Below, piece by piece: positions 38,652-63,491 of a stretch of DNA of 64,000 nucleotides (the first letter of the stretch is position 1; every line of letters begins with the position of its first letter). The notes under the pieces are model-generated. The model did no database searches and was not told where the DNA came from. It worked only from the letters and a program-made list of their open reading frames with translations. This stretch comes from Methanobrevibacter ruminantium M1 (GTDB lineage: Archaea > Methanobacteriota > Methanobacteria > Methanobacteriales > Methanobacteriaceae). The position numbers and the translations under genes are program-made. The stretch is from positions 1,511,501 through 1,575,500 of the forward strand of contig NC_013790.1 of the NCBI RefSeq assembly GCF_000024185.1. The letters run 5' to 3'.

Positions 38652-38660
38652 GTGCTAGAT

Positions 38661-39014
38661 ATGGGTCAAAAATTCAACATCAAAGAGTTAGAGATTAGAT
38701 CATTCAGAGGAATCAAGGATTTGAAATATGATTTTGAAGGAAAGTCCTTAGTGCTATGTGGCCCTAACGGATGTGGAAAAAGTTCAATTACACAGGCATT
38801 CGAATACCTCTTCACAGGCCAAGTCGCTTCCCTAAAGGGAATTCAGGGAGTAAAGCATGACGAATCACTTATCCATAAAGGGGATTCAAAGGAAGACCTA
38901 TTGGTTAAAGCCAAGATAGGAGGCCAATACATTGAAAGATCATTCAATGAAGAATTCAATCCAGGGCGATTGAAGGATATCTATGAAGACTCAAGAATGG
39001 CTCTTTTTTATTGA
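38661..39014 (+). CDS. SMC/RecF-like ATPase, N-terminal fragment (frameshifted)
   Basis: Encodes the head start of an SMC-like ATPase: FNIKELEIRSFRGIKDL, then Walker A CGPNGCGKSS, then FEYLFTG. The frame ends at 39014 just after a T6 run (39004-39009). One extra T there would continue ALFLLNRKKLLSFIE into the next ORF, so the two are one gene split by a single-base loss or a sequence error. I use the ATG at 38661 (AGGTG upstream) rather than the GTG three codons before it. Confidence 0.75.
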   Translation: MGQKFNIKELEIRSFRGIKDLKYDFEGKSLVLCGPNGCGKSSITQAFEYLFTGQVASLKGIQGVKHDESLIHKGDSKEDLLVKAKIGGQYIERSFNEEFNPGRLKDIYEDSRMALFY

Positions 39015-40900
39015 ATAGGAAAAAGCTTTTATCTTTCATTGAATCAAAGCCTAGAGAAAGATACAATCAAATCACAGGACTCATCTCCTATGAAAAATAT
39101 GATGAAATAGAGACAAAGCTTCGACAGGCATCCAAAGACATTAATGATGAAATAAAAATTCTAAACAAAAGGAATGATGAAAAAATCAGTGAACTGACCC
39201 AATTTTATAGCTGCGAATCTGATGACCTATATGAAAAGATTAATGCTTCTCTAAAAAAGAATAATTTAAAGCAAATTGATGAAAATACTAATTTAACCCA
39301 ATACATTGATGAAAACAAGCTTAGCAAACCACATAAACTATTAAACAAAAACATTGAAGAACTAAATCATGATTATTTAAGACTATTGGATAATTATGAA
39401 AATATCACCTTGACAGAACTGAAAACAACCAATTCATTAGTTTCATTGCTTGAAAAATCCAGGGAATACCTTTTATTGGAAAATCCAGATAAATGTCCCA
39501 TTTGTCAAAAATACATTGACAGCGAAGAAATCATAAATGATTTAAGTCCAAAAATCGATAAAATCAATGAAAACTTGAAGTTGTTTAAAGATTGGAAAAA
39601 TGACTGCAACATTATAATAAAGCAATTATCAGATTTAGATTATGAAATAAAGGATTTCAATGGTGAAAATCACAATTCATTGGACTATGATTTGAACGAT
39701 TTGATAGAATCATTAAATGACTTGTCAAATTTCGATAAAGGACTATCTGAAATGGACAGGGAAATATTGGGCTCTCTAAATAAAGATATCATTTCCATAA
39801 AAGGTAAAATGCAAGCAAATACAGATGAGATAAACAGGAATTTAGACCATCTACAAATTCTTAAGAATATTAGGGAAAATGAAAAATATTTGGAAAAGAT
39901 TCAAAAGCAATATGATGTTTCCAAAAAATCTCATGAATTGTTTAAAAAGATCAAAGAAGAAGAGCTTGCCAATATCTTAAAGCAAATAGAAGAATATACC
40001 ATTGAATTCTACAATTATATACACTACGATGAAGACATAAACAGCCCTAAAATGAAAATCAAAGGTTCCAATAGCTTGACTTTGGCCCTATTCTTTGAAG
40101 ATGACGAGTCAGAGCCAAGGTCATTTTCAAGCGAAGGGCATATTGATACCTTAGGATTATGTCTCTTTTTGGCATTTGTAAAGGAATTCAATAAATATGA
40201 TTTCATCATTTTAGACGATATCATCTCTACCGTTGACTTGGAACATAAGGAACAGGTAATTAACCTTCTGTTTGAATACTTTGGAAACTATAAATTCATT
40301 ATAACCACCCATAACAAGCTATGGTTTGAGCAATTGGCAAGGCTTGCCGATTACTATCAACAAGGCAGATTCCAATTTGTTGAAATTACTGACTGGGACA
40401 GGGAAATAGGACCGTCACTGTCACGTAAAAAAGATGAAAAAGAAAGGATTGAACAGTACATAAATGACAATGACACCTTTGCAGCAGGCAATGCAATCAG
40501 ACGCCAGCTGGAATATGAATTGGATAAAATCTGCAAGGTAAATGAAATACCTCTGCCTCTTAAAAAGCATTATACTGTAGGGGACTACTACACTCCAACA
40601 AAGAAATTTGCTAAGGAAATGTTTAAGGACACTGATGTTGAAGAATATTACAAAAATGTATTCAAAGAACTGGATTTGTCTTTATACAAAGCAAATCTCA
40701 CATCCCATAACAATGAAATGAACTATGACTTGAACATCAATGAAATTAAAAAATTAAGGGATGCCGTTTATGGTTTGGAAACAGCATTCAAGTGCAAGAA
40801 TCATTCTGGAAACTATGTATTGAAGTTTGATATGGACAAATGTCTAGGACTTTGCAGCCATAAACGGTGCATAGACTTCTTTACATTTAATAGAATTTGA
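39011..40900 (+). CDS. SMC/Rad50-like ATPase, main fragment (frameshifted)
   Basis: Continues the preceding fragment; together they would make about 745 residues. It has a long coiled coil broken by a Rad50-type zinc hook KCPICQK (near residue 160), then the second half of the ATPase head: SFSSEGHIDTLGLCLFLAF (signature), FIILDDIISTVDLEHK (Walker B and D-loop) and FIITTHNK (H-loop). A C-terminal region with six Cys/His (CKNH, CLGLCSHKRC) follows. Such proteins occur in several defence systems and in DNA repair. The stop lies at a junction with a decayed transposase, so the natural C-terminus might be lost. It may be a pseudogene. Confidence 0.75.
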   Translation: MNRKKLLSFIESKPRERYNQITGLISYEKYDEIETKLRQASKDINDEIKILNKRNDEKISELTQFYSCESDDLYEKINASLKKNNLKQIDENTNLTQYIDENKLSKPHKLLNKNIEELNHDYLRLLDNYENITLTELKTTNSLVSLLEKSREYLLLENPDKCPICQKYIDSEEIINDLSPKIDKINENLKLFKDWKNDCNIIIKQLSDLDYEIKDFNGENHNSLDYDLNDLIESLNDLSNFDKGLSEMDREILGSLNKDIISIKGKMQANTDEINRNLDHLQILKNIRENEKYLEKIQKQYDVSKKSHELFKKIKEEELANILKQIEEYTIEFYNYIHYDEDINSPKMKIKGSNSLTLALFFEDDESEPRSFSSEGHIDTLGLCLFLAFVKEFNKYDFIILDDIISTVDLEHKEQVINLLFEYFGNYKFIITTHNKLWFEQLARLADYYQQGRFQFVEITDWDREIGPSLSRKKDEKERIEQYINDNDTFAAGNAIRRQLEYELDKICKVNEIPLPLKKHYTVGDYYTPTKKFAKEMFKDTDVEEYYKNVFKELDLSLYKANLTSHNNEMNYDLNINEIKKLRDAVYGLETAFKCKNHSGNYVLKFDMDKCLGLCSHKRCIDFFTFNRI

Positions 40901-41400: not shown

Positions 41401-41462
41401 GGTTTCTACAAAGGCTGAAGAATCATTGCAATTTTATTTATAAGAAAACTGAAGGGATAAAC

Positions 41463-42294
41463 ATAGCAATCATTGTTTTGTTAGAATAATCAATGCAATA
41501 AAATTAAACAAAGGAAACAGATTCCAAAGAAGGTGTTGTAATCCTTATTTTAGTAGATTAGCTTTTGCAATTTTTTTCCAAATCTTATAAGCAGGAGGCC
41601 AGAAAGATCGCAACCCTTATTTTAGTAGATTAGCTTTTGCAATACATATAGATAAATCCTTATGGATAGAGAGGGTAGGTCGCAATCCTTATTTTAGTAG
41701 ATTAGCTTTTGCAATAAACTACTACACAGGTGTTAAAATCGGAGAAATTTGTCGCAATCCTTGTTTTAGTAGATTAGCTTTTGCAATACTATAAAGAGTT
41801 AAAGGCCAAAGCCTTTAAAGATGTCGCAATCCTTGTTTTAGTAGATTAGCTTTTGCAATTCAATAGGAATGAAATAACAAATGACGCGCAGAAGGTCGCA
41901 ATCCTTGTTTTAGTAGATTAGCTTTTGCAATATAAGGGTATGTTAAAAACCCTAAAAAACTATAAACGTCGCAATCCTTGTTTTAGTAGATTAGCTTTTG
42001 CAATTATGAAATATAAAGAGTTCTCAGATAAATGGGAGAAGTCGCAATCCTTGTTTTAGTAGATTAGCTTTTGCAATAGAACGGAGGAATTTCTTATGAC
42101 TAATGAAAAATCTGTCGCAATCCTTGTTTTAGTAGATTAGCTTTTGCAATACATTGCTAGACACATAGGAATGGTGGAATATGATGTCGCAATCCTTGTT
42201 TTAGTAGATTAGCTTTTGCAATCGACTACGAAGCAACTATTAGCAGAATGACCAAATGTCGCAATCCTTGTTTTAGTAGATTAGCTTTTGCAAT
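41463..42294 (-). CRISPR. CRISPR array 1, 12 repeats (11 spacers)
   Basis: 37-bp repeats that on the plus strand start GTCGCAATCCTTGTTTTAGT and end GCTTTTGCAAT, with spacers of 35-36 bp and a strict 72-73 bp period. Eleven clear repeats lie at 41535-42294; the repeat at 41463-41499 is degenerate but keeps the 37-bp length and 72-bp phase. Repeats at 41535, 41607 and 41679 carry CTTATT instead of CTTGTT, which marks the old trailer end on the left. The leader is on the right beside cas1, so transcription runs leftward and the crRNA tag would end in ATTGCGAC. It belongs to the type III-A locus. Confidence 0.97.
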
Positions 42295-42611
42295 AGTCCA
42301 AAAATTTCCTCTAAACATATCAAAAACATATGGATATTGCTTCTTTTTATAGGGTTTTTGTGCAAATCTAAAAACTTAACCCTTATTTATATATATTTGC
42401 ACAATTAAAATAAAAAGTTTTCTATTAATATTACCTAATATTAATCATTGAATAAATTATATTAATGTTTAAAATCAAAATATCAAAAAAATAAAGGTTA
42501 AGATATAATTAATTAAAAAAATAAGGAAAAAAAGAGAAATAAAAAAATATGGAAAAAATAGTGAAAAAATAAAAATTCATTAAAAATTGATAGGTTTGCA
42601 CAAAATGGCTT
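42295..42611 (-). promoter_or_regulatory. Leader of CRISPR array 1
   Basis: About 315 bp of AT-rich DNA right of the leader-end repeat, nearly matched by the region right of array 2. Conserved blocks, on the plus strand, are AGTCCAAAAAT next to the repeat, GCTTCTTTTTATAG, TGTGCAAATCTAAAAACTTA, TTATTTATATATATTTGCAC (TATA-like when read leftward, about 95 nt from the repeat) and ATAGGTTTGCACAAAATGG at the far end. It lies between the array and the cas1 stop. Confidence 0.85.
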
Positions 42612-42621
42612 TCTGGATTAT

Positions 42622-43626
42622 TCACCATCTAAGAGAAAACCCTTCATATGGTACGCCATTTGTTAAATAATCAGCCATAAGCTTGCCTTGATATAAAATA
42701 ATATCTGAATAACTAATATTCTTACTATGAAACATTATCTTGCTATTTAATTTATCCAATATTTTTGCAATCAAAAGTCGTCTAGCCCTCTCATGAATCT
42801 TAATATAATTGCCATCTTCTTCAAAGTCATCTGGTGTAATCTGATTCCTATTAACTATTGAGAGCACTGTCTTATCAACTATCTGCTGTCTAAATTCTTC
42901 AATAAGATCATAAACCAAACTAGCCCTTCCATAGCGCTCTGAATGTAGAAAACCACAATATGGATCAAGGCCTGCCAAATATATTGACTTCCAAATCTCA
43001 CTTTCTATTACTGCATAACCATAATTTAACAATGAATTAACCGGATCTTTAGCACCTCTGCCACTTCTGCCAAAAAATTCCCATTTCTCATCAAGAACAC
43101 TAGCAAAAGCTGACCAATATTCATGTGACGCTTGCCCTTCAATTCCCAGTATATTATTTCTAATATTATCTGAATTGATATTAGATAATTTTTCTATTTT
43201 ACCAATATGTTCTGAAACCTTTTCTCTTTGTTCAATAATATAATCTTTCTCTTCCCTGCTTTTTGCAAGGGTTCCAAGCACTGCCTTTTGATTTTCAATC
43301 TTTGCTCTTACAAAAGCCTTAGCCAAATAGCCGCTTCTTGAGTCTGTAAGTGCAAAGTACTGTTCCTTTTTGACAATTGCGTTTTTCCTATCTGGAGCTG
43401 AGAGTCTGTAATCCACATGGCCTTTCCAATTGATTGATACGCAGTCCACATCATTTTCAGCAAGCAGGGTCAATGCATCAAAGGTAATTGATCCCTTGCC
43501 AGTTAATAGTATTTGGCTTATATCCTTTGCCAAATAATAGTTTATCTCTTTTCCGTTTTCCTTAATCACAATTTGATTGTCCCTTTTAGCAACTGATTTG
43601 CCAAATCCGTCTACAACTAATTTCAT
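42622..43626 (-). CDS. cas1: CRISPR integrase Cas1
   Basis: A 334-residue Cas1, the metal-dependent integrase that with Cas2 inserts new spacers next to the leader. The strand-rich N-terminal domain ([18 protein letters not shown]) precedes the helical catalytic domain, with Glu163 ([11 protein letters not shown]), His228 ([10 protein letters not shown]) and Glu243 (DLIEEFR) as expected active-site residues. All are present. AAGGAG lies before the ATG. It is the last gene of the adaptation set: cas2, a Cys-rich micro-ORF, then cas1, next to the leader of array 1. Confidence 0.97.
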
Positions 43627-43930: not shown

Positions 43931-44209
43931 CTATAAGAACTCATAAAGGGATTTCTTAGGCAAGTCCAGATTGCCCTCAATCAATATGGAATCAACACAG
44001 GATTCACATGTTGGGATAAGGATTATACTATCCCTCTCTGAAGACATGAAAAAATCAAACTCGCTTGCAAGATTCAATCTCTCATCAATAGATAAAAACC
44101 CACAGAATATGGATTTCTGAATTCTATGCAAGCCATAATGCTTTAATTTTTTAACCAAGCTTGTACGTGTTGGAGTATCAACTATATCATACATTACAAA
44201 AACTAACAT
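43931..44209 (-). CDS. cas2: CRISPR adaptation protein Cas2
   Basis: A 92-residue Cas2, the dimeric bridge of the Cas1-Cas2 integrase. It has the ferredoxin-like pattern MLVFVMYDIVDTPTR (conserved Asp8), HYGLHRIQKSIFCGFL and SIILIPTCESC. A CxxC pair near the end is uncommon. GGGAGG precedes the ATG. It starts the leftward adaptation set after a 1.1-kb gap from cas6, so it likely has its own promoter (TATA-like TTTTTATAGTTT near 44300, read leftward). Confidence 0.95.
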   Translation of the reverse strand: MLVFVMYDIVDTPTRTSLVKKLKHYGLHRIQKSIFCGFLSIDERLNLASEFDFFMSSERDSIILIPTCESCVDSILIEGNLDLPKKSLYEFL

Positions 44210-44842
44210 ATTTTCCTCCCAATAATAAAGAAAATTTATTAATTTTCATAGAAAACAGAGCTAAAATCAAACATGACTGATAATTAAAACCATTAAACTA
44301 TAAAAAGAGTTTCCAAATATTAATATTCAATGATCAAATAAAATAGCCAAAACAGACTAGATATTTTTCTAATTGGATAATTAATATTTTAGAAAAATGC
44401 TAAATCTACCAATATTTATTTAGTGTTGTATGTGCATACAATAAATGTAGTTGGTTAAATATAAAGTTTTACATTATTTTTTCAAAAATCAAATCTTTTT
44501 AAATTACAAATTTTGGCTTTTATATAATTTAATCACCAATATTTGATACTTTTTTAATTTATTTAAAAAATCAATTGTTTTTTTAGGAGATGGGAATGAA
44601 AAATCTTGTTTTTTTTAAGGAAATATGGACATATAATTTTTATCCTATTGTGCAATAGTGAAAAACTTCCAGGAATTTTTTAATTTCATTAAATTTTATA
44701 ATTTTTTTAAATGGACATATGGTTTTTATGGATTTATTATTTCTATTTCAAGTTGAATTTTATTTAATTGATTAATTTAGTCTTAAAATTTTAAATGGAT
44801 ATTTGTTAATTTTTATTTTAAATCCTCAGGTTTTTATTTAAG
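44210..44842. other. AT-rich region upstream of cas2
   Basis: No ORF is supported. The words ATGGACATATAATTTTTAT (44625), ATGGACATATGGTTTTTAT (44711) and ATGGATATTTGTTAATTTTT (44795) recur with an 84-86 bp period, so this could be repeat-derived. It contains the cas2 promoter at its left edge and leads on the right into a CRISPR leader-like segment. Confidence 0.4.
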
Positions 44843-45120
44843 TTGTGCAAATATTATAAATGTGAATATATTTCACATACTTGCACATAATTCGCAGATA
44901 CAAGTGTAATATTTCTCAATTTTTGCATATTATATGTGGATTTTAGGGGTTATTTCATTGAGTTTTCCAATAAAACAAGGATTGCGACACTTTGTCCAGT
45001 TCTGCAATAAAAGTTTTAAGTTCATTGCATTGAGTTTTCCAATAAAACAAGGACTCATTTAACCTATTTTATAATACATCAGAACAGTTTGCATTGAATA
45101 TTCTAAAAACAAGGATTTAA
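44843..45120 (+). CRISPR. Decayed CRISPR mini-array with leader, opposite orientation
   Basis: On the plus strand TTGTGCAAATATTATAAAT (44843) matches the leader promoter block of arrays 1 and 2 (TTGTGCAAATATATATAAAT). About 100 bp on, matching the spacing in the intact leaders, come three degenerate repeats sharing TAAAACAAGGATTGCGAC or parts of it: ending at 44988, about 45054 and about 45118. AAAACAAGG cores at 44972, 45044 and 45106 are 72 and 62 bp apart, near the 72-bp array period. The order leader then repeats runs rightward, opposite to both intact arrays. It appears to be a fossil array. Confidence 0.7.
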
Positions 45121-45177
45121 CTATTTTCCATAATAAAATATCAAAAATATTCTTTTAGAAAAATAGTTATTGAAACA

Positions 45178-45310
45178 AGCTAAAAATATAATCTAAAAAA
45201 AAGAATGCATTAAATGCAAAAAAAATAGAATAAAATAAATAAAAAGCTAAAAATATGATCTAAAAAAAAGAATGCATTAAATGCAAAAAAATAGAATAAA
45301 TTAAATAAAA
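45178..45310. repeat. Tandem ~66-bp duplication after cas6
   Basis: AGCTAAAAATATRATCTAAA and the following ~47 bp (AAAAGAATGCATTAAATGCA and so on) occur at 45178-45244 and 45245-45310 with only a few differences. They lie between the fossil array and the cas6 stop. Each copy has the palindrome TGCATTAAATGCA. Confidence 0.85.
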
Positions 45311-45320
45311 AAAGTAAAAA

Positions 45321-45995
45321 TTAGTCTTCTTCTTGGTCTGTGACCTTAATTACCGTACCAAATCCTTGGCTTACACCTTTACCAAATCCAAAGAAGTCAG
45401 GAATATTGAAGTTAACCTTAAACTCTCCTGTGAAAGCATTCATCTGAACATTTTTATATTCGGCTATCTCATCATCCAAAAGAGAGCTGACATGCAGCCT
45501 TTTGTTAACTATTATACCTAATCCCTTTGACATGGAAAGAATATTTCCAACCATAATATTATTCAAAAAGCTCTTTTTTTCTTTCCAATCCTTAATATTC
45601 TTAAAGGATTGATAATTTTTAGTATTCAATGCCAGCCAAGGGCTTAAGAACTTATATTGATGATATTTCCTAGTGGCCCTAACATCATACTCCTTATAAT
45701 ATAAGTAATGATCCTCCACCCTATAATAGCTGTCTCCCATCTTAAGCGCTTTAATTTTAGAGGATATGTCAACCAATATGTCTGCACCCTCTTCAATCCC
45801 TAGAATAGATGGCTGCCCATCTATGATTTGATACTGAACAAGAGGATAAGAGTATAGGAATTTATTATTTCCATAATGATTATGGAGAATAGGATACTTG
45901 TCAAATTCCCTTCCTATATATCCCCTGAACTTTGAAGGATTCTGCTTGACTTTCTTATTAGTCTTTAAAACTAAATGACATGTATTTATTTTCAT
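45321..45995 (-). CDS. cas6: CRISPR RNA endonuclease Cas6
   Basis: A Cas6-type RAMP protein of about 224 residues that would cut pre-crRNA within the repeats. The C-terminal glycine-rich loop FGFGKGVSQGFGTV is diagnostic of the family. The N-terminal part starts MKINTCHLVLKTN. I moved the start to 45995: AGGTG lies just before this ATG, while the longer frame adds 30 atypical residues with no ribosome binding site. The active-site His cannot be assigned with confidence. It follows the CARF gene by 124 nt in the same direction. Confidence 0.88.
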   Translation of the reverse strand: MKINTCHLVLKTNKKVKQNPSKFRGYIGREFDKYPILHNHYGNNKFLYSYPLVQYQIIDGQPSILGIEEGADILVDISSKIKALKMGDSYYRVEDHYLYYKEYDVRATRKYHQYKFLSPWLALNTKNYQSFKNIKDWKEKKSFLNNIMVGNILSMSKGLGIIVNKRLHVSSLLDDEIAEYKNVQMNAFTGEFKVNFNIPDFFGFGKGVSQGFGTVIKVTDQEED

Positions 45996-46119
45996 AGTGC
46001 ACCTAAATAAAAGTGATTTTATCAAACGTTTTTTTAAAATTTTAAATCTTATTAATGAAACATAATAAATTCGTTTAACCCACATATAATAAGTGGGCTA
46101 AACTAAAAATAGGAATATG

Positions 46120-47495: not shown

Positions 47496-47625
47496 TTAAA
47501 ATAAAAAAAATGGATTAAATTTTACTTAACTTAACCCATCCTAAAGGTTCAAAGCTATTTTTAAAATAAAAAAAATGGATTAAATTTTACTTAACTTAAC
47601 CCATCCTAAAGGTTCAAAGCTATTT
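47496..47625. repeat. Perfect 65-bp tandem duplication over the csm5 3' end
   Basis: 47496-47560 and 47561-47625 appear identical, each running from TTAAAATAAAAAAAATGG to GGTTCAAAGCTATTT. The right copy contains the last 15 codons and stop of csm5; the left copy lies between csm5 and the CARF gene. Confidence 0.92.
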
Positions 47626-54038: not shown

Positions 54039-57000
54039 TTATTTCTTTTTATGAAGTGTAAAAATGTCCTCATTGCTTGAAATAATATAATTTAATTCCT
54101 TATCTAAATTTTTCAAACAGTAATATTCATCCAAATCATGATTTAAATAATTTAAAGCATAATCTGCTTTTAGATTGTATCCTTTTTTGCAAACAATATT
54201 TTCAATCTGCCTAATTGCATTCTCATCCCCAATTAGTTGTTTAGTGGAATATAAACGTTGCTTAAACCATTTGTCGCTGCTTTTTGTTCTATGGATCTTA
54301 TTGCTTTTATTAAAATATTCCATAATAACCAGCAACTCATGTTTATAATTATTAGTGCGCCTATAAATACTAGCCAATCTTTGATAATATCTGAAACTCT
54401 TTTCTTTGTACTTATAAATTGCCATAGCATATAAGTCAAAAGCTTCCTGATTGAGCTTTTCTTCATATAATCCATCGGCAATATTGGTATAATAGGACCT
54501 TTTATGATTATAGAATTCCTCTTCATCTGATAGGATTTTTAGTCTGTTCTTATCTTTTTTCAATCTATCAGCATTAGGAATAGAATTATTAGATAAATCA
54601 GAATCTTTTAATAGATTTACATAATTTTTAATTAAATCTTTTAGTTCATTATGCTTTATTCTAGCTCTTTTAGGCAATTTCCTATTCTTATATTTGAAAT
54701 ATAAGAATTGATATTTATTGGCATAAACGCTTGATTTGAAGAAATCTCTTATAATATCAGCTTCTTTATCATATTTTTTAGTCTTATGATAGACTTTCAT
54801 TAATTGCTTATATGGATAGTAATCTTCTTTAAAATAGGAATTGTGTATTAATTTTTTATAATAATCTTCAGATTCATCATATAGTTCTTTTTTAAGCAAT
54901 TTCAATCCTTTTTTCTTTAGGATATATTTTCTTAAAATGTTCTCTTCAAGAGACAAATCATCATCATATTCAAAAAGATCAATGTCCTTGGAATAATCAT
55001 TTTTAAGGAAATTCTTATATTTTTTAGGAATGGACTTTAAATCCAAATATTTTGAATAAGAACTAATAAATGGTTCTTTTGAAGATTTAGAGGATTCCTT
55101 AGATTTATAAGATTTCTTTTTGGATTTAGATGAATCTTTTTTAGAACTAGGAGATTTCATTTCTGATTTAAATGAATCTTTTTTAGATTTGAAATCCGCA
55201 CCAAGATGTTTATCATCAGATGAATTATTTAAATTTTTAATTTGATTAGCAGATACAGACAAATCATTATCCTTATCAGATACAGAAACACCCTCTTTAG
55301 CAGATATAGGAATACCTTCATTAGCAGATACAGAAACACCCTCTCTTGCAGATATAGGAATACCTTCATTAGCAGATACAGAAACACCCTCTTTAGCAGA
55401 GATTGAAGCTAAATCATCTGCACTAATATCAACATCAAACTTAGTTTCATCATCTGAATCAAAATCAATATCTTTCCAATATCTGTCTTTTAAATCAATT
55501 ATTTCATAATCTGGCAAGTTCTGATAGAACTTATTTCTAAAAGATAAAGTGTCCTCATTATTAAAGTCAAAAACAGAAACGTCATCATTATTTGCCTTAA
55601 CGCATATCTTTGAGAAACTGCATTTTAAGCAGCCCTCTCCAAAATTACATTCGAATACTTCTTTTTTAATATTCAATGAAACATTATCAAGCTCTTCTAA
55701 AAGAATATCAAGGGACTTCTGATTTATATCAACAGATATCATCTTTCTTGCTTTTATTGCATATATCCGAAGCTCATCGATTTCAAAACTATCCTTTAAT
55801 GCAATCATATAGGTATAGACCTGCTTAATATAATTTTGAACATAATGCCTTGATATGCGTTCAGTGTTCTTATAATCCAAAATGCCCATCTTTCCATCTT
55901 TGGTCTTATAGATTAGGTCAATAATGCCTGACAATCCATAATATTCCTTTTTAATGCTAAATGAAAGCTCTGTGTTTAATATATTGAAATCCTTTCCAAA
56001 GGTATTGTAATAATAAAGAACATCATTTTTTATAATATCATATTCCTTCTTTGACAATCTTAAGTTTTCAAAGCGGAAGGAGTCTTGAAACCTTTCAAAG
56101 ATAGCCAAGACCTCATCATCTCCAATATATCTGTTTCCGTTGGACCTGATTCTATTGTTGATCGTTTCAAGCAAATTATGTACAAACAAGCCTCTTAGCT
56201 TATTGAATTCCATTGTGGATTCGCTGAAATTAATGTCATGCATCAGTTTATACTTGAAAGGACAGGCAACATAATTCTCAAGGGAATAAAAGCTTAAATT
56301 AAGGAAATCCTCCTTTTTAACTTGAGGCTTTTCACAAACCGTCTTTGGAAGCTGGCTAAAGTCATCTTCCAAAAACTTGCAGCTTGAGAGATTCCTATTG
56401 ATCAAGTCATGAATCTTAATATGCCCTTTAGGAATGTCCTTGATTATTTCTATCTTTTCAATTTGAGAAAGATTGTCATTCAATTCTGCTTTTAACCCTT
56501 CTAATTCAGGAGTTTCCTTGATTAGATTAGATAGAACTAAAATATCCTGAGCCCTTGTCATAGCCACATAGACTATTCTATCCTCTTCCTCTAGATAGTC
56601 TTGAATTTCCTCTTCCTTGGAATCGTAATTCTTATATTCCAAACAGGAGTTTGGAGTGTAAAACCTATCATATTCATCCTTATATTGGCTTGGGAACTTC
56701 TTATGATTCAATGACAGTAAAATGACTACAGGAAATTCCAATCCTTTAGACTTATGGACTGTCATAAGCTGAACCCCTTCGGATTCATCATTATCTGTGC
56801 TGTAGCCAGCTATGTTATATCTTAAGAAATAGTATGCTCCCTTCAAATTCTTATTGTCTACAATCAACTCATAATTATGGAAAGTGTTGCTTAGGATTGC
56901 CAGATTTTTAAGCTCATCCCTATTAATAGGGTCATTAATGAAATCTTCAGTCAAATAATTGCAGACATCTGTCAGCAATTTCATATAGATATCCAAAATA

Positions 57001-60391: not shown

Positions 60392-63177
60392 GTTGCTATC
60401 CTTGTTTTAATAGATTACTTTTTGCAATTTGTATACCATGACAGTAAAATTGTAACTTTTGCATCACAATCCTTGTTTTAAAAGATTACTTTTTGCTATT
60501 CAGTAACAATTTTTCTCGAAAAACAAGAAGGCAATCACAATCCTTGTTTTAGTAGATTACTTTTTGCAATAAAAAGACACTTAAAAATTATGGAACAAAA
60601 AAAGGAGTCACAATCCTTGTTTTAAAAGATTACTTTTTGCAATTCTGATTCCCTTAACAAACTCACAATAAGGGAAAAAGTCACAATCCTTGTTTTAGTA
60701 GATTACTTTTTGCAATATTAACAAGGAAACAGAAATGGAGATTAAGACACTGTCACAATCATTGTTTTAGTAGATTACTTTTTGCAATATTTCATTTTTG
60801 GACTGATGTTGTTCTTGAAGAAAGTCACAATCCTTGTTTTAGTAGATTACTTTTTGCAATGTAGGTATATTTCTTATAGAATAAATAAAATTTATGTCAC
60901 AATCCTTGTTTTAGTAGATTACTTTTTGCAATACAATAACAGAGACAACAGTACTGAAGAAACAGTAAGTCACAATCCTTGTTTTAGTAGATTACTTTTT
61001 GCAATATGAAATCATTGAAACACTTGTTGAAATTCATGCAGTCACAATCCTTGTTTTAGTAGATTACTTTTTGCAATTATGGTAGTTGAGAAAGTTACAA
61101 AAGTTAGGGCTAAGTCACAATCCTTGTTTTAGTAGATTACTTTTTGCAATCCTTATTGAATGATACCAAAGACAAAGTGGACGAATGTCACAATCCTTGT
61201 TTTAGTAGATTACTTTTTGCAATAGAGTTAAAAGAGAGTTTAGCTATAGCAAGAGTTTGTCACAATCCTTGTTTTAGTAGATTACTTTTTGCAATAAGAG
61301 CTAATAAACAAACTAAAGAATATATGCTTAAGCTGTCACAATCCTTGTTTTAGTAGATTACTTTTTGCAATATAAGATTAGTTTTGATATTATTAGATTT
61401 TTTTCTGTCACAATCCTTGTTTTAGTAGATTACTTTTTGCAATTCGGTTCTTCCGTCTCTCGTGTGTCCGTCGCGGGTGCGTCACAATCCTTGTTTTAGT
61501 AGATTACTTTTTGCAATCCTAATACCTATTGTAAATCTTTTCAATTTAAAAGAGTCACAATCCTTGTTTTAGTAGATTACTTTTTGCAATGACAAACTTT
61601 ATACCTTAAGAAAGGTTCAAGGTGTGTCACAATCCTTGTTTTAGTAGATTACTTTTTGCAATCAATCATTCAGTATACGATAAAGAGTGTAACGACTGTC
61701 ACAATCCTTGTTTTAGTAGATTACTTTTTGCAATAGATAATAGATAAATTGAGGTGTTAAATATGTTATGTCACAATCCTTGTTTTAGTAGATTACTTTT
61801 TGCAATATATCATTATAGACAAATATAGACAAAAAGAAATTGTCACAATCCTTGTTTTAGTAGATTACTTTTTGCAATATATCATTATAGACAAATATGA
61901 CAAAAAGAAATTGTCACAATCCTTGTTTTAGTAGATTACTTTTTGCAATGGCAAAATTGAACGATTTAAGCCAATACGACACTTGTCACAATCCTTGTTT
62001 TAGTAGATTACTTTTTGCAATAATTAATGAAAATTATATAGGTGATTATTTATGTGTCACAATCCTTGTTTTAGTAGATTACTTTTTGCAATATGAATTT
62101 GACTTAAGAAGCCAACTCTTAAGAAGAGTCACAATCCTTGTTTTAGTAGATTACTTTTTGCAATATCAAAATGTAATGATGCCATACCATTATCATTTAG
62201 TCACAATCCTTGTTTTAGTAGATTACTTTTTGCAATATTATTGTGACACAAAAAAGAAATTTCCTTGACAAAGTCACAATCCTTGTTTTAGTAGATTACT
62301 TTTTGCAATCAAAAATACATTTTACAAAGATATGCTTAAAGTCTTGTCACAATCCTTGTTTTAGTAGATTACTTTTTGCAATCCCATATGGAAGTCGCGA
62401 GGGAATCAAAGAAGAGGTCACAATCCTTGTTTTAGTAGATTACTTTTTGCAATAAAGTTCAAGGGGTAACAAGACAAGCATACTTCGGTCACAATCCTTG
62501 TTTTAGTAGATTACTTTTTGCAATATCAAAAAACTTTTATATTTTTTATTGGTGATAAAATGTCACAATCCTTGTTTTAGTAGATTACTTTTTGCAATAT
62601 ATACAAGTTATAAAAACTTGAGAGTTATAAAAAGCGTCACAATCCTTGTTTTAGTAGATTACTTTTTGCAATAGAGTATGGTTGTCACTTTAGGGAGGAT
62701 TTCTAAGTCACAATCCTTGTTTTAGTAGATTACTTTTTGCAATACCTTAGAACTCTTAAAACAAGTAAAACATCGAGCGTCACAATCCTTGTTTTAGTAG
62801 ATTACTTTTTGCAATGAAATACAGATTAAGCAATCAGGCATATAGACAAGTCACAATCCTTGTTTTAGTAGATTACTTTTTGCAATAAAGACACTTTAGA
62901 TGTAATTGTTCGCTATAATGAAGTCACAATCCTTGTTTTAGTAGATTACTTTTTGCAATATTATATTAAAACTCAAATAACTATAGATAGATTTGTCACA
63001 ATCCTTGTTTTAGTAGATTACTTTTTGCAATTTAATGGACTTATAGTTAGTTATGACTTAAAAGCACGTCACAATCCTTGTTTTAGTAGATTACTTTTTG
63101 CAATATGACATGAGTTGTGATTTAAACGGCATCGTAAGCGAGTCACAATCTTGTTTTAGTAGATTACTTTTTGCAAT
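60392..63177 (-). CRISPR. CRISPR array 2, 39 repeats (38 spacers)
   Basis: 37-bp repeats, on the plus strand starting GTCACAATCCTTGTTTTAGT and ending ACTTTTTGCAAT, with spacers of 34-37 bp. They differ from array 1 at three or four positions near both ends. Trailer repeats on the left are degenerate (60392, 60463, 60534; TTTTAAAAG variants at 60463 and 60607). The leader-end repeat 63142-63177 is 36 bp, lacking one C of AATCC. Two spacers (61807-61841, 61879-61912) are nearly identical and one (61444-61480) is strikingly GC-rich. The leader is on the right, so transcription runs leftward. Confidence 0.97.
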
Positions 63178-63491
63178 AGTCCAAAAATTTTCTCAAAATG
63201 TATGAAAAAATAATGGAAATTGCTTCTTTTTATAGTGTTTTTGTGCAAATCTAAAAACTTAACCCTTATTTATATATATTTGCACAATTTAAATAAAAAG
63301 TTTTCTATCAATATTAACAAATAATAATCATTGAATCAATTATATCAATGTTTAAAATTAAATATTTTAAAAAATACTAAACAATATGTAATTAATTAAA
63401 AAAATAAGGAAAAAATGAGAAATAAAAAAATATTAAAAAATTAGCGGAAAATTGGAAATTTGTTAAAATCCTATAGGTTTGCACAAAATGG
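63178..63491 (-). promoter_or_regulatory. Leader of CRISPR array 2
   Basis: It aligns along its whole ~315 bp with the array 1 leader, with blocks AGTCCAAAAAT, GCTTCTTTTTATAG, TGTGCAAATCTAAAAACTTA, TTATTTATATATATTTGCAC and ATAGGTTTGCACAAAATGG in the same order. The block beside the repeat differs most (63190-63220). It probably serves as both promoter and integration signal. Confidence 0.85.

Follow-up and report, generated by a model that had tools for sequence, protein, structure and literature searches.

In the type III-A CRISPR locus of Methanobrevibacter ruminantium M1, the gap between cas6 and cas2 contains a short element that is probably the remnant of a third type III-A array, formerly located in this gap, which has been inverted and contracted, is dead with respect to spacer acquisition, and may still yield one crRNA. 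In our opinion this element is most likely an ordinary evolutionary leftover. The M1 genome comprises one contig of 2,937,203 bp, and all coordinates given below without further specification refer to the window, i.e. the whole 64-kb stretch of that contig that was analysed. The locus can be assigned to type III-A, as Csm1, Csm2 and Csm3 score above the cut-offs, and it reads leftward in the order cas10/csm1, csm2, csm3, csm4, csm5, a gene for a Csm6-like CARF-HEPN protein, cas6, the gap of 1,111 bp, cas2, cas1 and array 1. All cas genes and both intact arrays of the locus are carried by the minus strand, and the element lies inside the gap on the plus strand, exactly as the original prediction had it with respect to both the placement in a 1.1-kb gap and the opposite orientation. 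The analysis of the M. ruminantium genome counted two CRISPR regions (PMC2812497), and the element is not among them. The coordinates of all features are collected in Table 1.

Table 1. Parts of the element and neighbouring features of the type III-A locus (window coordinates)
Feature	Position	Strand	Remarks
Distal leader site TTGTGCAA	44648-44655	+	195 bp ahead of the copy in the promoter; corresponding distance in arrays 1 and 2, 199 bp
Promoter block TTGTGCAAATATTATAAAT, TATA-like	44843-44861	+	mid-range score among 18 family leaders; match with 0 mismatches unique in the genome
Leader site TTGCACA in inverted form, close to where transcription is expected to start	44881-44888	+	weak compared with the family
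Leader-repeat junction GGATTTTAGGGGTT, weakened	44938-44951	+	family form roughly AAATTTTTGGGCT; rank 17 of 19
Repeat R1, ATTTCATTGAGTTTTCCAATAAAACAAGGATTGCGAC, 37 nt	44952-44988	+	3' half and 8-nt handle ATTGCGAC intact; invariant G4 changed to T
Sole remaining spacer, 35 nt	44989-45023	+	no target found
Repeat R2	45024-45060	+	first 29-30 nt retained; handle and cleavage end at the 3' side missing
R3, weak, older degenerate terminal repeat-like sequence	about 45089-45120	+	
cas1	42622-43626	-	
cas2	43931-44209	-	
cas6 (Cas6b-type)	45321-46085	-	listed ORF begins upstream; start in relatives at about residue 30
Array 1 (type III-A)	41461-42294	-	leader on the right side; old-type terminal repeat at 41461-41497
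Array 2 (type III-A)	60392-63177	-	leader on the right side

The predicted presence of a leader promoter about 100 bp before the repeats was confirmed by a promoter block 109 bp ahead of R1, a distance identical to that found in the array of a relative, genome G001 (see below), while the motif of arrays 1 and 2 stands 110 bp ahead of their first repeat. Alignment of the last 140 bases before R1 with other leaders gave scores of 115 for G001, 85 for array 2 and 81 for array 1, compared to 76.5 for the best of 500 shuffles against the three nearest leaders, so that the match to the array and G001 leaders exceeds all the shuffles. Among the ten copies of TTGTGCAA in the window, eight sit in the three leaders. 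Together, the leader alignment, the promoter-repeat distance and the distal TTGTGCAA site indicate that the whole leader has been retained, beyond a mere promoter. The blocks of this leader were also scored against 18 other leaders of the family, which yields ranks out of 19: the promoter block is typical (rank 11), while the inverted site, the mid-leader and the junction occupy ranks 17-18, the latter two at the bottom of the family range; the junctions of two arrays of another species rank below that of the element. The type III-A leaders of the family share a three-site layout, with a distal TTGTGCAA copy about 195-199 bp upstream, a copy in the promoter, and the inverted TTGCACA near the expected start (42358-42603, 44648-44888 and 63241-63486 in the window), which looks like the operator of some leader-binding regulator.

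The repeats of the element, identified by cores AAAACAAGG at 44972, 45044 and 45106, follow each other with the predicted spacing of 72 and 62 bp. Over the first 30 positions R2 is identical to R1 at 29, an agreement that points to copying between them in the course of normal acquisition with this type of repeat; on the other hand, a difference at just one of 30 positions means that the decay is not very deep, and this counts against the interpretation as a remnant. A survey of 18 family repeats revealed little or no variation at positions 1-6, 15-16 and 18 and at most of positions 20-37, in contrast to positions 7-14, 17 and 19, which vary. R1 differs from the repeat of array 1 chiefly in the variable part, and the change of G4 to T is its only loss at an invariant position; R2 has kept G4, and six of its seven last bases are without precedent in the family. 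From the sequence comparisons we take the true lesions of the element to be the G4T change in R1, the loss of the 3' end of R2 and the weakening of the leader-repeat junction. The repeats, originally described as degenerate, do carry lesions in R1 and R2 and include the weak R3, but they are less degenerate than claimed, since their divergent middle varies naturally in the family; likewise, the claimed divergence from both intact arrays is real, but mostly confined to that naturally variable middle. The AAAACAAGG core is present in each of the three repeats; as to the motifs said to be shared by all of them, ATTGCGAC is found only in R1 and an exact TAAAACAAGG is absent from R3.

The repeat type of the element appears to be old in M1, as the repeat at the end of array 1 (ATTGCATTGATTATTCTAACAAAACAATGATTGCTAT) is closer to R2 (28 of 37 positions) than to the consensus of its own array (26 of 37). 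Apart from M1, none of the 139 genomes of the family contains the element's repeat with up to 3 mismatches; a search of Rfam gave no match, and RNA folding of the repeats was uninformative. In its leader architecture, repeat length, 5' ATTxCA, 3' TAAAACAAGGATTGCGAC and 35-nt spacer the element resembles arrays 1 and 2, from which it differs in having one spacer, in being inverted with respect to the cas genes, in the variable middle of the repeat, and in the decay of the junction and the last repeat. It combines a correctly spaced leader, related to the leaders that active arrays possess, with two repeats of the family type (R1 and R2, 72 bp apart, the latter without its 3' end) that flank a spacer of the usual length.

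It is hardly conceivable that AT-rich sequence has merely assembled by chance into something resembling a leader and repeats. The region is indeed very AT-rich; however, shuffling of the window gave an expectation of zero for the 17-nt repeat end AAAACAAGGATTGCGAC with as many as 2 mismatches allowed, and the 18-nt 3' half of the repeat occurs genome-wide in arrays 1 and 2 and once in the element, which is the only exact copy outside the intact arrays. Given these zero expected repeat matches, a leader match that surpasses every shuffle, the conserved spacing and the counterpart in G001, we rejected an origin by chance.

Cas6 of this kind was detected in 20 of the 139 family genomes searched, and a search for related loci with Cas6 as the query found nothing. 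In most relatives with a complete locus, cas6, cas2 and cas1 are almost contiguous and the array follows cas1. Array sequence within the cas6-cas2 gap was found in a single relative, G001, the nearest one with this locus (contigs C41 and C44). On one contig, a leader just after cas6 is followed by the first repeat of the array, with which the contig ends; the other has tail repeats of an array just upstream of cas2 and cas1. Since this array is split over two contigs, its continuity is presumed, which counts against the interpretation of the M1 element as the remnant of an array with a counterpart at the same position of the locus. The G001 array resembles the element in locus position, in possessing the closest leader, in the 109-bp promoter-repeat distance and in the presence of TTCCAATAAAA in the repeat, but differs from it by following the direction of the cas genes, by its intact junction and by its repeat ATTGCAGGATTTATTCCAATAAAATAAGGATTGCGAC. 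Leader and first repeat taken together, the element and G001 score 169, compared to 123-138.5 for the other pairs that include the element, and each is the other's best match in the set of five (next best 151). When the flanks of M1 and G001 were aligned in search of an inversion, the cas2 and cas6 sides were not significant (at the level of shuffles) and the part upstream of the leader scored barely above shuffles; these flanks are too AT-rich to prove an inversion, which therefore rests on position and leader similarity. The remnants of the last spacer in M1 and G001 (CATTTAA-CCTATTT in both) display a similarity reached by 34 of 5000 shuffles, which is only suggestive. In another relative (L066, 3277-4270; G070:C18), cas6 contains several stop codons, two copies of a degenerate repeat stand in tandem behind it, and cas2 and cas1 are absent; we regard this as another dying III-A locus.

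The original prediction of a dead third array with its own leader is thus well supported by leader homology, normal spacer length, the G001 counterpart, and the decay of the junction and the terminal repeat. We propose that the common ancestor possessed an array in the cas6-cas2 gap, which has been kept in G001, and that in the M1 lineage it would have been inverted and contracted to one spacer by recombination between repeats. Spacer uptake would have ceased as the leader-repeat junction decayed, and arrays 1 and 2 would have taken over. As the promoter and the R1 handle are retained, a single crRNA may persist at a low level, comprising the handle AUUGCGAC and the 35-nt spacer, with the 3' end trimmed as usual in type III; instead of a regulator, it would be the immune record of a past encounter with a virus that has not been sampled. 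As a relic, the element would be a small record of array gain, inversion, contraction and replacement within one locus, and it illustrates that, among the parts of an archaeal leader, the promoter persists beyond the loss of acquisition and the junction is the first to go.

We consider it rather unlikely that the element is still a functional mini-array, an immune memory of one spacer whose transcript would be processed and employed by Csm in defence against a virus, and which might still acquire spacers. The promoter and the R1 handle are intact and the spacer has 35 nt, but its junction and the end of R2 are damaged, and the search for a protospacer, which covered IMG/VR, phages, plasmids and, allowing 3 mismatches, the rest of the M1 genome, gave no true match. 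Genome contigs yielded five 20-mer matches, all in unrelated bacteria and with 23-29 of 35 positions identical; we attributed them to chance. Two of the newest spacers of arrays 1 and 2 likewise have no match in IMG/VR, so the missing target is uninformative about function. The reverse complement of the spacer is an open coding frame (ELKTFIAELDKV), so that an mRNA with this frame would be complementary to the crRNA. When KTFIAELDK was searched for as a degenerate pattern, it matched one viral contig, in an HK97-gp10-like gene, which would fit a normal antiviral spacer antisense to viral mRNA; we treat it as a lead only, as it consists of one short stretch of peptide and the virus seems to be unrelated. 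A relaxed form of the pattern matches many unrelated genes in the family.

It was also suggested that the element could be a kept crRNA-like guide directed to cas DNA or RNA, for which we found no support. Two kinds of mini-CRISPRs with host targets are known: CreA, which requires a partial match to a toxin promoter (PMC9458426), and CreR, which requires a match to a cas promoter and has been reported for types I and V-A (PMC12737573). Like CreA of the CreTA modules (types I-B and I-F), the element comprises two diverged repeats around one spacer-like stretch beside cas genes, but it differs in that no adjacent toxin was found, no nearby promoter is partially matched, the effector is of type III and the leader is that of a conventional array. 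The ORFs in the gap are unremarkable, reaching up to 42 aa, although the reading of ORFs is blind to RNA toxins, and the window outside the element contains no seed match of at least 9 nt from spacer position 1 or 2, hence none to the promoter of a neighbouring toxin. Like CreR, the element is a mini-CRISPR that has a promoter of its own and is situated in a cas locus; unlike CreR, it displays no complementarity to cas promoters beyond chance, the longest word common to the spacer and the cas region being 10 nt (reached by 140 of 200 shuffles), and it belongs to a type III-A rather than a type I or V-A locus. As the target features of CreA and CreR were looked for and not found, we classified the element as a relic array.

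It is quite improbable that the element acts as a type III analogue of CreR, in which a promoter-driven RNA would be processed by Cas6, loaded into Csm and paired with a cas transcript, best of all the cas1 mRNA, to tune the adaptation genes. Such a role would agree with the position inside the cas locus and with the promoter having stayed intact while the acquisition part decayed. Base pairing with cas transcripts, a check proposed along with the guide hypothesis, is best for the cas1 mRNA (about 43055-43088, -26.8 kcal/mol, with 22 Watson-Crick and 4 G-U pairs), a value equalled or beaten by nine of 300 dinucleotide shuffles; however, the duplex is interrupted by loops, and among 48 ordinary spacers there are 2 whose pairing with cas mRNAs is as good or better. 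A regulatory role is further disfavored by the seed and shared-word results given above, by the missing invariant base at the 5' end of R1, by the different repeat of the G001 array at the same place, and by the reports of CreR being confined to types I and V-A (PMC12737573). Slightly less probable still is a more specific variant, in which a contracted array would have kept its promoter and guide after acquisition had ended, and its RNA would now serve the Csm complex of type III-A as a guide to the mRNA of cas1 or of another host gene, as the first type III counterpart of CreR. If the element's RNA acted on a host mRNA, RNA-guided control of cas genes would extend to type III, but nothing here points there.

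We give very little credence to a simple antisense unit, whose plus-strand transcript would run convergently into cas6 and act as an antisense RNA regardless of the CRISPR features. The promoter does face the 3' end of cas6, 460 bp away, and a scan tuned to bacterial terminators detected no terminator-like hairpin on the plus strand of the gap; however, archaeal terminators are U-runs, to which such a scan is not suited.

Several other features were observed in the course of this analysis. Between R3 and cas6 there are two 67-bp tandem copies (45174-45307, 81% alike), each of which includes, on the cas strand, a small hairpin GCATTAAATGC and a subsequent T-run; they are possibly duplicated terminators of the cas operon. 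Elsewhere in the M1 genome we found a complete type I-B-like cas set (cas7, cas5, cas3, cas4, cas1, cas2) followed by repeats reading ISIPKWSDFN, a type unrelated to the arrays in the window (L090, 2635-9124; G000:C1:1026634-1033123), and an isolated second cas1, broken by a frame change or stop, with a chaperonin gene and a large adhesin-like gene nearby (L089, 8839-9844; G000:C1:2136838-2137843). In the window, the last codons of csm5 are part of a perfect 65-bp tandem duplication at its 3' end (47496-47625), and an AAA/RecF-like ATPase gene beside restriction-type genes is apparently frame-split into two overlapping ORFs of 120 and 629 aa (38652-40900). Finally, 24-bp tandem repeats within a UvrD-like helicase gene (55270-55413) encode a repeated serine-rich linker.
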